In this document: piece by piece, positions 13,324 through 18,297 of the stretch | How the letters are laid out: every line of letters starts with the position of its first letter | Position numbering within the stretch: the stretch's first letter is position 1 | Source: Halopenitus malekzadehii | GTDB taxonomy: Archaea > Halobacteriota > Halobacteria > Halobacteriales > Haloferacaceae | Length of the DNA: 41,838 bases | Assembly (NCBI RefSeq): GCF_900108505.1 | Contig: NZ_FNWU01000003.1 | Location: forward strand, 266,683-308,520 | Direction: 5' to 3' | The notes under the pieces: model-generated | Database searches by the model: none | What the model was told of the DNA's origin: nothing | What the model saw: only the letters and a program-made list of their open reading frames with translations | Program-made: the position numbers and the translations under genes

Positions 13324-15390
13324 CTAGTTGTCGAACCGCGCTTGGACGAACGGCTGGGCGTTCTCGATGTCGCCGAGCCGCGAGTCCGACAGGAGGACGG
13401 CTTCGGTCTCGTCGATCGGCACCGAGAGGCTCATCTCCTTGGTCCGACCGTACCGGCCCTTCGAGACGACGACCGCGTTGACGATTCCGAGCATGTCGAG
13501 CTCGGAGATGAGGTCGGTGACTCGACGCTGGGTGAGCACGTCGGCGTCGATCTCCTCACAGAGGCGTTTGTAGATGTTGAACACCTCGCCGGTGTTGATG
13601 TTGTGGACGCCGTTCTTCTCGAGGAGGATGATCGAAAAGAGGACGATCTTGCTCTGGGTGGGGAGCGTGCGGACGACCTCGACGACGCGGTCGAGTTCGA
13701 TCTTGTCCTGGGCCTGCCGGACGTGTTCCTCGCCGATCACCTCCGCCTGCGACCGCTCGGCGAGTTCGCCCGCGGTCCGCAGGAGATCGAGCGCCCGGCG
13801 GGCATCGCCGTGCTCCTGTGCCGCGAACGCCGCACACAGCGGGATCACGTCCTCGGTGAGCGCGTCACCTTTAAACGCGACATCGGCACGGTGTTGGAGG
13901 ATATCCCGGAGCTGATTCGCGTCGTACGGCGGGAAGACGATCTCCTCCTCGCCGAGACTGGACTTGACGCGCGGATCGAGGAAATCGGTGAACTTCAGGT
14001 CGTTCGAGATCCCCATGATGGAGATCCGCGAATTGTCGAGTTCGGAGTTCATCCTGGAGAGGTTATACAGCGTGTCGTCGCCGGATTTCTCGACGAGCTT
14101 GTCGATCTCGTCGAGCATGATCACGGCCACGCGCTCGTGGTAGTCGACGGCGTCGAAGAAGGTGGAGTAGACGCGGTCGGTCGGCCAGCCGGTCATCGGG
14201 ACCTCCTCCATCTCCTCGGCATCGTCCCGGAGTCGTTGGATCCGGTCGTCGATCGCCGAAACGTCCTCGAAGGGGGTTCCATCGAGTGGAGAGGGATCCG
14301 AACCCGCACCGGCGTCGATGGATGAACTGTCGGTATCGACGGGCGAAGCGTCGGTGTCTTCCCCGTCTGCGGCCGTTGATCTCTCTGTATCCGTGGATTC
14401 CTCATCGACGACGGCGGAGCGGAGCGTCTGCAGGTCGTCGATCCGGTCCGCGATCACCGTCTGATTCTGTTGGATGAACTTGTTCGCGAGTTGCGCGAGC
14501 ACGCGATACTGGGTATCGGTGACCTCGCAGTTGATGTACTCGACCTCGCAGGGAACGTCGTACTTCTTCGAGGTAGTCTCGAGTTCGTTCGAGACGAACT
14601 TCGCGGAGGCCGTCTTTCCGGTCCCCGTCTTCCCGTAGATGAGAATGTTCGAGGGAGTATCGCCGCGGAGTGCGGAGACGAGGATGGTCGCCATTCTGTT
14701 GATCTGGTCGGTTCGATGCGGGAGCTCGTGTGGGGTGTAGGAGGGACGAAGCACCTCCTTGTTCTCGAAGATGGGCTCGCTGGACAGGAGGTCGTCGAAG
14801 AGTCCCTGGCTTTCGGTTTCGTCGTCGCTGTCCTCCTGAAAGACGACGCCGTCCAGATCGACGTCGGTCGAGGATCGGTCCCGGCTGGGGGACGAATCGA
14901 CTGCGACGGTGACGTCGGCGTCGGTATCCGTCGATACGTCGGCGGCATCGGAGGGTGTGTCAGCGGTGGCGTCCGAAGGTGTGTCGGCGGCGGCGTCCGA
15001 GGTGGAATCATCCGAGGCAACGTCGGAGCCCTTCGTTTCGGATGGAGACGGTGTGGAGGAGGAGGGAGTGGAGGAGGCAGGAGTAGAGGAGGCAGGAGTG
15101 GAGGAGACGGAACGATCGTCGGGTGCTCGGTCGTCGACGGCGTCGTTCCGATCGTCGGCGGGGGGTGCCCTCGTGGCGGCATCCGGATCGTCCGTGACGG
15201 GATCCGGATCGTCGGGAGCGAGAGCCGAATCATCGTCGGATGCGGGACCGTCGTCGGATGCGGGACCGTCGTCGGATGCGGGACCGTCGTCGGATGCGGG
15301 ACCGTCGTCGGATGCGGGACCGTTTCGTTTCGAAGTCTCGTCGTCGCTCGTCTCGGGTGCGTGTTCGGATGTCGTGTGGTCTGTTCCCAT
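13324..15390 (-). CDS. orc1: Orc1/Cdc6 replication initiator (origin-adjacent)
   Basis: The 688-residue AAA+ initiator binds ORBs and loads the MCM helicase. Residues 1-205 are a disordered acidic extension with five GPASDD repeats. The AAA+ domain has IYGKTGTGKTASAKF (Walker A near 255) and VAVIMLDEIDKL (Walker B near 425). A 60-70 residue Asp/Ser/Thr-rich insert separates them. The C-terminal winged helix (about 585-680) includes LTQRRVTDLISELDMLG. The family is usually 400-570 residues, so this one is long. The frame continues to 15867 through origin DNA, but MGTDHTTSEH at 15390 is the likely start. An ORB-like site lies 6 bases upstream, which suggests autoregulation. Confidence 0.93.
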   Translation of the reverse strand: MGTDHTTSEHAPETSDDETSKRNGPASDDGPASDDGPASDDGPASDDGPASDDDSALAPDDPDPVTDDPDAATRAPPADDRNDAVDDRAPDDRSVSSTPASSTPASSTPSSSTPSPSETKGSDVASDDSTSDAAADTPSDATADTPSDAADVSTDTDADVTVAVDSSPSRDRSSTDVDLDGVVFQEDSDDETESQGLFDDLLSSEPIFENKEVLRPSYTPHELPHRTDQINRMATILVSALRGDTPSNILIYGKTGTGKTASAKFVSNELETTSKKYDVPCEVEYINCEVTDTQYRVLAQLANKFIQQNQTVIADRIDDLQTLRSAVVDEESTDTERSTAADGEDTDASPVDTDSSSIDAGAGSDPSPLDGTPFEDVSAIDDRIQRLRDDAEEMEEVPMTGWPTDRVYSTFFDAVDYHERVAVIMLDEIDKLVEKSGDDTLYNLSRMNSELDNSRISIMGISNDLKFTDFLDPRVKSSLGEEEIVFPPYDANQLRDILQHRADVAFKGDALTEDVIPLCAAFAAQEHGDARRALDLLRTAGELAERSQAEVIGEEHVRQAQDKIELDRVVEVVRTLPTQSKIVLFSIILLEKNGVHNINTGEVFNIYKRLCEEIDADVLTQRRVTDLISELDMLGIVNAVVVSKGRYGRTKEMSLSVPIDETEAVLLSDSRLGDIENAQPFVQARFDN
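15233..15322 (-). repeat. 18-bp in-frame tandem repeat, five copies, in orc1
   Basis: Five copies of TCGTCGGATGCGGGACCG (plus strand) encode GPASDD five times in the N-terminal acidic extension of Orc1. Confidence 0.95.
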
Positions 15391-15537: not shown

Positions 15538-15544
15538 GTTGCCC

Positions 15545-15568
15545 TCTCCAGTTGAAAGGGTGGTGGGG
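15545..15568 (+). promoter_or_regulatory. ORB-like element
   Basis: CTCTCCAGTTGAAAGGGTGG followed by TGGGG on the plus strand matches the core and G-rich tail of an ORB, with a longer spacing before the tail. It lies just upstream of the possible orc1 TATA box. Confidence 0.55.
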
Positions 15569-15587
15569 TGTGTGACGAGATACCCAT

Positions 15588-15608
15588 CTCCAGTGGAAGC
15601 GGAGGGGT
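15588..15608 (+). promoter_or_regulatory. ORB-like element
   Basis: CTCCAGTGGAAGCGGAGGGG on the plus strand has the core TCCANNNGAA and the G-rich tail in the normal spacing. It has the same orientation as the site at 15545 and lies 43 bases from it. Confidence 0.65.
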
Positions 15609-15743
15609 TCGATAGGTCGGCAGAGCACCACGGTCGGTGGTTCAGGTGATCGACGATTCTGTTGGAGCCGATCGAAACCGATATTTCACGAGTATTGGCG
15701 ACAATTCTCGCGTCACACAATGACTCGTGCTGGTACGCGCCAC

Positions 15744-15846: not shown

Positions 15847-15929
15847 TATCACGATGACAAACACCATTCAACAAGGTACCATCCAACATACAGAACTGGC
15901 CATTGGAGATCTGGTTACCGTTCATTTGA

Positions 15930-15981
15930 CCCCCCACCCCTTCGTTTCAACTGGAGACGGGTGGAGGGGTGGGGGTGGGTT
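15930..15981. promoter_or_regulatory. Left core ORB, double-sided
   Basis: On the minus strand the site reads CTCCAGTTGAAACGAAGGGG followed by TGGGGGG (15930-15955). On the plus strand the same core reads TTTCAACTGGAGAC and runs into its own G-rich tail GGGTGGAGGGGTGGGGGTGG (15959-15978). One core thus has G-rich tails pointing both ways. The outward half is the better match to the ORB pattern. Confidence 0.8.
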
Positions 15982-16029
15982 AGGTGGTAGTTAGAGTGAC
16001 GGGGGCTGTCCGGAACCGATCGATCGGTT

Positions 16030-16150
16030 GGATTAATAAAATAGGTTTCTATAATTTTATTTTATATTAATATATGTCTGAATCATACCTTCTACTGCAT
16101 TACGGGTACTGTTTGAACCTTTCATATATAAAACCACCGCTATAATATAC
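16030..16150. other. AT-rich putative DNA unwinding element
   Basis: Between the two core ORBs lies a markedly AT-rich stretch, densest at 16031-16077, with further AT clusters near 16121-16132 and 16141-16149. This is in sharp contrast with the GC-rich surroundings. Its position between oppositely directed ORBs is where duplex opening is expected. Confidence 0.8.
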
Positions 16151-16155
16151 GGGGG

Positions 16156-16210
16156 TCACCCCCCACCCCACCAATATCGAGTTCCACCCGAAACGAAGGG
16201 GTGGGGGGGT
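16156..16210. promoter_or_regulatory. Right core ORB, double-sided
   Basis: On the plus strand TTCCACCCGAAACGAAGGGG (16182-16201) continues into TGGGGGGG. On the minus strand the same core is followed, after a longer spacer, by GGTGGGGTGGGGGG (16157-16172). The outward tail mirrors the left core ORB, so the two sites face each other across the AT-rich segment. Confidence 0.85.
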
Positions 16211-16240
16211 TGCGTCGATCGGAGACTATGAACGTTGAAT

Positions 16241-16350
16241 GGTGATTAATACCAAAACAAGAGGTGGTTGATAACAGACTAAGGGGTGGTCGGTAACAGA
16301 TAGGATGATGTTTGGTGACGGATGATATGGTGGTTGGTAACGAATGTAGA
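16241..16350. repeat. Right origin array: five 22-bp units in exact register
   Basis: Units start at 16241, 16263, 16285, 16307 and 16329, each exactly 22 bp apart. The conserved part is about GGTGGTTGGTAACAGA; the first and fourth units are the most diverged. A 22-bp spacing is close to two helical turns, so a bound protein would sit on one face of the DNA. The array ends about 110 bases before the oapA ATG. Confidence 0.85.
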
Positions 16351-16462
16351 AGACGGCTGAGGGACCCGTGTCCACCTGGATCCGTGTCTGACGCAGTTCT
16401 TAAGTGAAAGCGGCGTGGAACGTGCTGTATATCCCCGCGCCGCCGCAGGGACGGAGGACAGG

Positions 16463-17104
16463 ATGGGACTGCTCACGAACCTTAAAGACAGCATCTCGAA
16501 AGTCTCTGACCGGCTGTTCGCGGACGAGGAGCCGAAGCGGATCGGCATCTACGGTCCGCCGAACGCCGGAAAGACGACGCTTGCGAACCGTATCGCCCGC
16601 GACTGGACCGGCGACGCCGTCGGTCCCGAAAGCCACGTTCCACACGAAACGCGCCGGGCTCGCCGCAAGGAGGGCGTCGAGATCGAGCGCAACGGGCGGA
16701 CGGTCACGATCGACATCGTCGACACCCCGGGCGTCACGACCAAGGTCGACTACAAGGAGTTTCTCGACCACGATATGGAGAAGGACGACGCCGTCCGTCG
16801 CTCCCGCGAGGCGACTGAGGGGGTCGCCGAGGCGATGCACTGGCTCCGTGAGGACGTCGACGGCGTCATCTACGTGCTCGACTCGACGACCGACCCGTTC
16901 ACACAGGTGAATACGATGCTCATCGGCATCATCGAGTCCCAGGATCTGCCCGTCCTCATCCTCGCGAACAAGACTGACCTCCCCGAATCGAACATCCAAC
17001 GCGTCGCCAACGCCTTCCCGCAACACGAGACGATTCCCCTCTCGGCGCTCGAGGGCGACAACATGGATGAAGTCTACGACAAGATCGCGGAGTACTTCGG
17101 ATAA
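16463..17104 (+). CDS. oapA: Origin-associated GTP-binding protein OapA (Era-like GTPase)
   Basis: The 213-residue GTPase has G1 GPPNAGKTT near 32-40, G3 DIVDTPG near 84-90 and G4 NKTD near 168-171; DTPG replaces the more common DxxG of Ras types. No KH domain follows, unlike bacterial Era. The frame opens at 16415, but the ATG at 16463 has GGAGG at 16453-16457, an ideal ribosome binding site that decides the start. It lies next to the origin and leads a tight three-gene operon with oapB (stop and start overlap by one base). In Haloferax the oapABC genes flank the main origin; their exact role is unresolved. Confidence 0.9.
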   Translation: MGLLTNLKDSISKVSDRLFADEEPKRIGIYGPPNAGKTTLANRIARDWTGDAVGPESHVPHETRRARRKEGVEIERNGRTVTIDIVDTPGVTTKVDYKEFLDHDMEKDDAVRRSREATEGVAEAMHWLREDVDGVIYVLDSTTDPFTQVNTMLIGIIESQDLPVLILANKTDLPESNIQRVANAFPQHETIPLSALEGDNMDEVYDKIAEYFG

Positions 17105-17535
17105 TGCCCGAAGCAACGCCAAACGTCGACGGCGGTGACGGGATCGACGGCAGCGACGACGACAATGGCGATGATGACGGCGTCCGGATCGACCTGATAA
17201 GCGGTGCCCGGATGGAGGGACTCACGAGTATGGAGAAGATCCGGCTCATCCTCGACGGCGTCCGCGACGGTAACATCGTTATCCTCGAAGAGGGGCTCGC
17301 CCCCGACGAGGAATCGAAGCTCATCGAGGTGACGATGACCGAGATCAGCCCTGACGAGTTCACCGGGATAGAGATCGAGACGTACCCGAAATCGGACGCG
17401 GGCGATCAAACCCTTCTCGACCGGTTGATGGGTCGTGAGTCCGCACAGAAGCTGACCGTCATCGGTCCGGCCAACCAGCTGCAGACCCTCCACAAGGACG
17501 AGACGCTCATCAGCGCGCTCGTCTCCCGCAAGTAG
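17104..17535 (+). CDS. oapB: Origin-associated protein OapB (DUF2073)
   Basis: The 143-residue protein has an acidic disordered start (residues 1-25), then the conserved DUF2073 domain: LISGARMEGLTSMEKIRLILDGVRDGNIVILEEGL, then EVTMTEISPDEFTGIEIETYP, and ends KLTVIGPANQLQTLHKDETLISALV. It is soluble, with no catalytic motif that I recognise. Its ATG overlaps the oapA stop by one base and its stop is followed at once by the oapC ATG. The arrangement suggests translational coupling and joint function. Confidence 0.9.
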   Translation: MPEATPNVDGGDGIDGSDDDNGDDDGVRIDLISGARMEGLTSMEKIRLILDGVRDGNIVILEEGLAPDEESKLIEVTMTEISPDEFTGIEIETYPKSDAGDQTLLDRLMGRESAQKLTVIGPANQLQTLHKDETLISALVSRK

Positions 17536-18297
17536 ATGCCCCACCAGTGTACGTCGTGTGGCCACGTCTTCCCCGACGGATCCAAGGAGATGCTTTCCGG
17601 ATGTCCCGACTGCGGCGGGAACAAGTTCCAGTTCAAACCGGGATCGGTCGACGACGCCGGCGGATCGAGCACCGACCGATCGGGGTCCCCGACCACCGAC
17701 GAGAACGTCACCATCGACCCTGACTCCGGGACCGACGGACCGGCGTCGGCTTCCACCGATTCGTCGTCTCCATCCGCCGACGCCGGTTCATCGTCCCGCT
17801 CCGCCGCCGATCCCGCTGCCGCCGGGACTGCTCCGGATCGTGATGCGGAGGTCACGATGACCCCCGACGACGAAGTCCCCGACGATGCCGCCGAGGACGA
17901 CGCGCAGGCGAGCGCGCGATCGGAGATCGTGAGTCCCGATGAACTCGCCGTCTCAGAATCGTCCGGATCCGGGACTTCCTCGCCCCAAGACGGCGACGAA
18001 ACGCGGGAGGTGGCCGGGACACGGCCCGACGACGCCACCGAACCCGACGACGCCACCGAACCCGACGACGTCACTGACCCCGACGGTGACGCCGACACCG
18101 CGGAGTCCGATTCGGGACTGGATGCGCTTCGTGAGGAACTCAACGACCAGTTCGAGAGCATCCGGATCGTCAGTCCGGGCCAGTACGAACTCAACCTGAT
18201 GGAGCTGTACGATCGCCAGGAGTACATCATCTCTCTACAGGAGGACGGCCGTTACGTCATCGAGATGCCCGGCGATTGGGGCCCCGACGACGAGTGA
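17536..18297 (+). CDS. oapC: Origin-associated zinc-ribbon protein OapC
   Basis: The 253-residue protein begins with a zinc ribbon: CTSCG (Cys5, Cys8) and CPDCG (Cys23, Cys26) in the first 30 residues. A long disordered Asp/Ser/Ala-rich middle (about 35-190) includes three EPDDAT-like repeats. The conserved C-terminal block (195-253) reads LREELNDQFESIRIVSPGQYELNLMELYDR and ends GDWGPDDE. The start follows the oapB stop with no gap. It is convergent with the 2H phosphoesterase gene 19 bases away. Confidence 0.88.
   Translation: MPHQCTSCGHVFPDGSKEMLSGCPDCGGNKFQFKPGSVDDAGGSSTDRSGSPTTDENVTIDPDSGTDGPASASTDSSSPSADAGSSSRSAADPAAAGTAPDRDAEVTMTPDDEVPDDAAEDDAQASARSEIVSPDELAVSESSGSGTSSPQDGDETREVAGTRPDDATEPDDATEPDDVTDPDGDADTAESDSGLDALREELNDQFESIRIVSPGQYELNLMELYDRQEYIISLQEDGRYVIEMPGDWGPDDE

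Follow-up and report, generated by a model that had tools for sequence, protein, structure and literature searches.

Each of the two ORBs at positions 15930-16210 of the 41,838-nucleotide stretch of Halopenitus malekzadehii DNA analyzed here (the window) has G-rich sequence on both sides of its core. The locus thus raises the question of whether each core is one box that can be read from either strand, as the original prediction had it, or whether the G-rich tails that face inward, toward the AT-rich segment between the ORBs, are an element of their own.

Gene context and architecture of the origin

The region lies within 1 kb of intergenic DNA, with orc1/cdc6 on one side and a GTPase-OapB-OapC operon (16415-18297, plus strand) on the other. 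The orc1/cdc6 initiator gene (13324..15390, minus strand; Pfam Cdc6_C, 1e-31, and Cdc6_lid, 1.2e-29) encodes a protein with an AAA+ domain, a lid and a C-terminal winged helix, preceded by an N-terminal extension of approximately 200 residues. Its best PDB relatives, both close in sequence, are the Sulfolobus solfataricus Orc1-1/Orc1-3 complex (2qby_A; 2e-105) and the Aeropyrum pernix Orc1-ORB4 complex (2v1u_A; 4e-99). The N-terminal extension (14940-15390), which lies ahead of the AAA+ domain, is partly made up of tandem repeats, with an 18-nt unit at 15224-15323 and a 15-nt unit at 15035-15106. The operon comprises the GTPase gene that flanks the origin (16415..17104; Pfam MMR_HSR1, 1.4e-13) and the genes for two origin-associated proteins, oapB (17104..17535; Pfam OapB, 4.4e-43) and oapC (17536..18297; Pfam OapC, 3.2e-28), all on the plus strand. 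The order orc1-origin-GTPase-OapB-OapC is the conserved setting of archaeal oriC1. In many Halorubrum genomes, oriC1 and its orc1 are found about 10 kb from oapB rather than adjacent to it, as in genome G011 (oapB at C1:639526, ORB at 652534). An Rfam search of the window gave no match.

The two ORBs point outward, away from each other, and flank an AT-rich segment (16034..16149, no strand assigned) that is conserved in Halopenitus and, judged by its sequence, is the presumed duplex unwinding element (DUE). On the orc1 side, the left ORB (15930..15956) reads CTCCAGTTGAAACGAAGGGGTGGGGGG on the minus strand and consists of the core CTCCAGTTGAAAC plus GAAGGGGTGGGGGG, with its outward, halophile-specific G-string at 15930-15940. 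On the GTPase side, the right ORB (16182..16209) reads TTCCACCCGAAACGAAGGGGTGGGGGGG on the plus strand (core TTCCACCCGAAAC plus GAAGGGGTGGGGGGG), and its outward G-string occupies 16198-16209. The outward halves form a perfect 19-nt inverted match (CCCCCCACCCCTTCGTTTC / GAAACGAAGGGGTGGGGGG). Genome-wide, GAAACGAAGGGGT occurs at zero mismatches in the left and right ORB only, and both ORBs are also supported by class-wide alignment. In these respects the original prediction is borne out: its coordinates, its layout of two outward-facing ORBs around an AT-rich segment, its mirror-image outward halves and its G-rich tails on both sides of each core are all present in the sequence, the inward tails at 15959-15979 (plus strand) and 16159-16169 (minus strand).

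An oriC1-type orc1/cdc6 gene adjoining GTPase, OapB and OapC genes, together with two inverted ORBs that carry extended outward G-strings and enclose an AT-rich region, is the arrangement of a haloarchaeal oriC1. By gene context and architecture, 15930-16210 is the predicted oriC1, the main replication origin, of a Halopenitus species.

Other sequences in the neighborhood were also noted. One ORB-like sequence lies within the orc1 coding region (15027-15051, minus strand; CTCCATCCGAAACGAAGGG), weaker ones lie close to the orc1 start (15542-15612; TCTCCAGTTGAAAGGGTGGTGGGG and CTCCAGTGGAAGCGGAGGGG), and many relatives have an additional ORB core approximately 450-550 nt away on the orc1 side. 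GT-rich repeats and an outer 14-nt inverted repeat, AAACACCATTCAAC / GTTGAATGGTGATT (15859-15872 and 16234-16247), flank the ORBs; the outer repeat was rejected as an origin element, as it is not kept in two other Halopenitus genomes. Across species, no helical phasing was detected between the two ORBs (vector length 0.11).

Inward G-rich tracts and their one-sided conservation

Four G-rich sites have been described in oriC1 of Haloarcula hispanica by Wu et al. in 2014 (PMC3936714). Two of them, I and II, are the outward G-strings that end the ORBs and are essential, whereas sites III and IV form a G-rich inverted repeat inside the ORBs and are enhancing only (PMC3936714). Mutants of this repeat formed smaller colonies, with the strongest effect from changes on both sides, which is why it was termed an "enhancer"; the readout was how large the colonies of plasmid transformants grew, in a single Haloarcula species (PMC3936714). 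The repeat was seen in most haloarchaea, with half of it only in four (PMC3936714), and in our data Haloarcula amylolytica carries GGGGGGAGGGGG and CCCCCTCCCC at the positions of the published H. hispanica sites.

In the window, an inverted G-rich repeat likewise lies directly inside both ORBs. The left inward tract (15959..15979, plus strand; GGGTGGAGGGGTGGGGGTGGG) is the counterpart of site III, and the right inward tract (16159..16169, minus strand; GGGGTGGGGGG, or CCCCCCACCCC on the plus strand), 12 nt from the core, is the counterpart of site IV. As far as position, orientation and composition tell, the inward tails are the published G-rich inverted repeat of oriC1, and the element is thus already known. 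The two origins share inverted ORBs with G-strings I/II and a G-rich inverted repeat III/IV, but they belong to different genera; the inward tracts of the window contain GGGGTGGGGG, not GGGGAGGGGG, and on the left the window has a longer form with four runs. By analogy with the published mutations of the same element in H. hispanica, the inward tails would matter for origin activity here as well.

Genome-wide statistics were obtained by pattern searches. A composite pattern, CCCCNCCCC-N6..15-TCCANNNGAAACRARGGGG, which describes an inward two-run C tract, 6-15 nt, the core and the G-string, has exactly two matches in the 3.14 Mb genome, namely these two ORB sites. It was found in 105 of 194 class genomes, and a reversed control pattern gave 0 matches in all genomes; the inward tracts are therefore far from a chance occurrence. 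As a background, two-run C tracts occur in 1.7% of 55-mers elsewhere within the same loci.

The comparison set consisted of oriC1 from 76 genomes in 42 genera, contigs ending near the origin having dropped out, and we defined a tract as two runs of three or more C. At least one inward tract is present in 64 of the 76 loci, on the left only in 34, on the right only in 4 and on both sides in 26, so that the orc1 side carries a tract in 60 loci and the other side in 30. The 12 loci that have a two-run tract on neither side indicate that the tract is dispensable. When one-sided retention is counted by genus, 17 are left and 1 is right (p = 1.4e-4, uncorrected for phylogeny, the related genomes counted here not being independent). 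Two Halopenitus genomes other than that of the window and a further genus make up the right-only exceptions.

Halopenitus departs from the majority in a way that the alignments help to explain. Here the left inward tail falls within a 32-nt insertion that is missing from two other Halopenitus genomes, and the right inward tail is strictly conserved in all three. The original prediction had made conservation of the inward tails one of its touchstones: on the left they are unconserved within the genus, while class-wide they are conserved. We compared 15930-16210 with Halorubrum loci (L121-L133); inverting the interior of the Halopenitus cassette improved its alignment to Halorubrum and same-family genera (26/30 and 27/30 comparisons). 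These alignments indicate that, unlike in related genera, the ORB-to-ORB cassette of Halopenitus is inverted relative to orc1 and that the conserved tract moved along with it, which places that tract on the right in the window. In the genus represented by L067 and L071, the cassette was apparently inverted independently, as judged by motif polarity only.

Register of the tract and competing explanations

Alignment of the 76 loci by their cores shows a sharp position for the inward C tract, the complement of which is the G-rich strand: it occupies -23 to -13 relative to the start of the core, and the C frequency reaches 0.94 on the left side. Tract and core are separated by a median of 12 nt (interquartile range 11-13 on the left and 11-14 on the right). 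We consider it very likely that this oriC1 has one polar Orc1 per ORB and that its inward tracts are an in-register enhancer, probably contacted by Orc1 or a partner.

The alternative that survives best is a GC clamp, in which the tracts merely bound the AT-rich unwinding region and receive no sequence-specific contact. The tracts do lie between ORB and AT-rich segment, and a comparison of left-only with right-only loci reveals that tract retention goes with the AT-richer side, although the right-only cases come from two genera only. A clamp, however, needs neither a fixed register of 11-14 nt to the core nor a constant direction of the G strand toward the unwinding region, nor the two-run GGGGNGGGG form. 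On account of this register and strand polarity, we favor protein contact and regard a passive clamp as unlikely.

Less likely still is the double-sided box itself, in which both strands of a near-palindromic core are read and two Orc1 molecules, each on a G-string of its own, sit back to back at every site. In its favor, the core comes close to a dyad, inward tract and outward G-string are alike in sequence (GGGGTGGGGG), and A. pernix Orc1 can dimerize in vitro at high concentration (PMC5333045). Dyad symmetry predicts a gap of about 4 nt, yet a gap in this mirror register (2-6 nt) was found in 0 of 60 left tracts and 1 of 30 right tracts, and the distance from dyad to tract is approximately 8 bp greater on the inward than on the outward side. 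The window departs from mirror symmetry in the same manner, as the canonical GGGGTGGGGG unit of its inward tail begins at 9 nt from the core on the left and at 12 nt on the right, which speaks against a core readable from either strand. Nor does the ORB half-site GAAACGAA precede the inward tract. The 8 nt ahead of the inward G tract match the half-site at 3.07 of 8 positions, compared with 2.28 in shuffles and 7.68 for the outward G-string, and the excess over shuffles is a purine-rich stretch, not a half-site. The gap and half-site tests together led us to reject a mirror-symmetric second ORB; the inward tail is a distinct element in fixed register and does not complete a two-faced box. Archaeal ORBs have been reported to bind one Orc1 with a defined polarity (PMC12141716, PMC7776575), with one polar monomer per ORB in Sulfolobus (PMC12141716), and the two sides of the box fall into different mutation classes in H. 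hispanica (PMC3936714). Given the register of about 12 nt in 76 loci, the missing half-site and the published one-Orc1 ORBs, the proposal of two Orc1 molecules at each composite site finds no support, and such double occupancy is unlikely.

About as improbable, in our view, is a G-quadruplex, the G-rich secondary structure that had also been suggested, in which the inward G-rich strand would fold upon opening and hold the origin open or block it. The left tail of the window (GGGTGGAGGGGTGGGGGTGGG) fits (G3+N1-7)x4 with a G4Hunter score of 2.36, but this tail is a species-level insertion and an exception: the right tail of the window has no four-run motif, and of the 76 loci only 11 have one on the left and 3 on the right. 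G4Hunter is similarly high in the outward G-strings, where the contacts are with protein, and a quadruplex does not need a fixed register to the ORB core. A conserved G-quadruplex was rejected on the basis of these 14 occurrences in 152 inward tails (76 loci). Taken as a whole, the original prediction is partly supported.

Proposed polarity of the unwinding region and proposed mechanism

According to the reading that we prefer, with the inward tracts as an in-register enhancer, one Orc1 would bind each ORB in fixed polarity, with its winged helix on the TTCCA...GAAAC core and its AAA+ domain on the outward G-string. The tracts, approximately 13-23 bp from the core on the side of the unwinding region, would then lie between bound Orc1 and the AT-rich segment. 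They would most likely be contacted as duplex by Orc1 or by a partner recruited with Orc1, and this contact may stabilize the initiator complex or the loading of the helicase where ORB and unwinding region meet. Both the contact and a role in loading or opening are what we infer from the geometry of the element. A stimulatory role is favored over one in recognition, since 12 of the 76 loci do without the tract and the published effect is on colony size only. To our knowledge, the 2v1u and 2qby complexes contain no inward G-rich tract, and the contact is therefore not readable from them.

The AT-rich segment carries two conserved directional DUE elements, both on the minus strand: AAACAGTACCC (16104..16114), approximately 67 nt inside the right ORB, and ATAGCGGTGGTTTTATATAT (16124..16143), 38-46 nt inside the right ORB. 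Across the 76 loci, AAACAGTA with at most one mismatch occurs in 43 (10.8 in shuffles), with an orientation bias of 42:8, and clusters 64-74 nt from the tract-side ORB. The GGTTTTAT core occurs in 44 (12.9 in shuffles; orientation 50:14), and across haloarchaea GGTGGTTTTAT and AAACAGTA are found approximately 43-49 and 65-72 nt, respectively, from the tract-side ORB. In Halorubrum, the ATAGCGGTGGTTTTATATAT block is present, inverted, at the orc1-side end; tract and unwinding-region motifs are co-inverted in Halopenitus.

Polarity was scored from the unwinding-region motifs alone, with both sides treated alike, in 131 loci (the 76 and 55 more), 81 of which were callable. Of these, 37 have a tract at the polar side alone and 4 at the opposite side alone, 31 have both tracts and 9 have none; shuffled interiors gave approximately 2 polar calls per side, versus 77 and 10 observed. 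The conserved tract is mostly the one at the end of the unwinding region with GGTGGTTTTAT and AAACAGTA, which is the right-hand side here. In our interpretation, oriC1 has an intrinsic polarity, of which the tract would be one component.

It is also conceivable, although we put it forward only tentatively and at somewhat less than even chances, that a directional module at one end of the unwinding region marks the side of helicase loading or first strand opening and moves as a unit on cassette inversion, as in Halopenitus. Such a module would comprise, under the same reservation, the ORB, 12 nt, the GGGGNGGGG tract, often CTAG, GGTGGTTTTAT at approximately 43-49 nt and AAACAGTACCC at approximately 65-72 nt. 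In the literature covered, to which a supplementary figure of Wu et al. on other species did not belong, we found no description of the fixed register or polarity of the tract, nor of the directional motifs AAACAGTACCC and ATAGCGGTGGTTTTATATAT.

CTAG is rare in haloarchaeal genomes. Between the ORBs of 66 loci (for example, L170:3870-4000) its density is 14.1/kb, versus 0.53/kb in flanking sequence, and it peaks 30-36 nt inward of the tract-side ORB. The clustering of CTAG near orc1/cdc6, correlated with an orphan CTAG methylase, is already known (PMC4752239). No CTAG lies between the ORBs in any of the three Halopenitus genomes, the window included, and H. persicus is without a CTAG methylase (PMC5867850); CTAG methylation is thus inapplicable here and was rejected as a part of this origin.

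A further close parallel is oriC1 of Sulfolobus (ORB2-DUE-ORB3, with ucm), which also has inverted ORBs around an AT-rich segment and a conserved motif inside the unwinding region, and in which each ORB takes one polar Orc1 monomer and replication begins at one ORB/AT junction (PMC12141716). It differs in being without the extended halophile G-string (PMC3936714), and an inward G-rich tract has not been described for it. What ucm shares with haloarchaeal GGTGGTTTTAT/AAACAGTA is its position inside the unwinding region.

With these results, one box read from both strands gives way to a known enhancer with a defined geometry, namely a fixed gap of 12 nt and a tract that lies toward the unwinding region, for the most part on a single side. 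Should the polarity of the unwinding region prove real, the initiation asymmetry reported for Sulfolobus oriC1 would gain a readable sequence counterpart in the genetically tractable haloarchaea, where start-site mapping would put the predicted polarity to a direct test.
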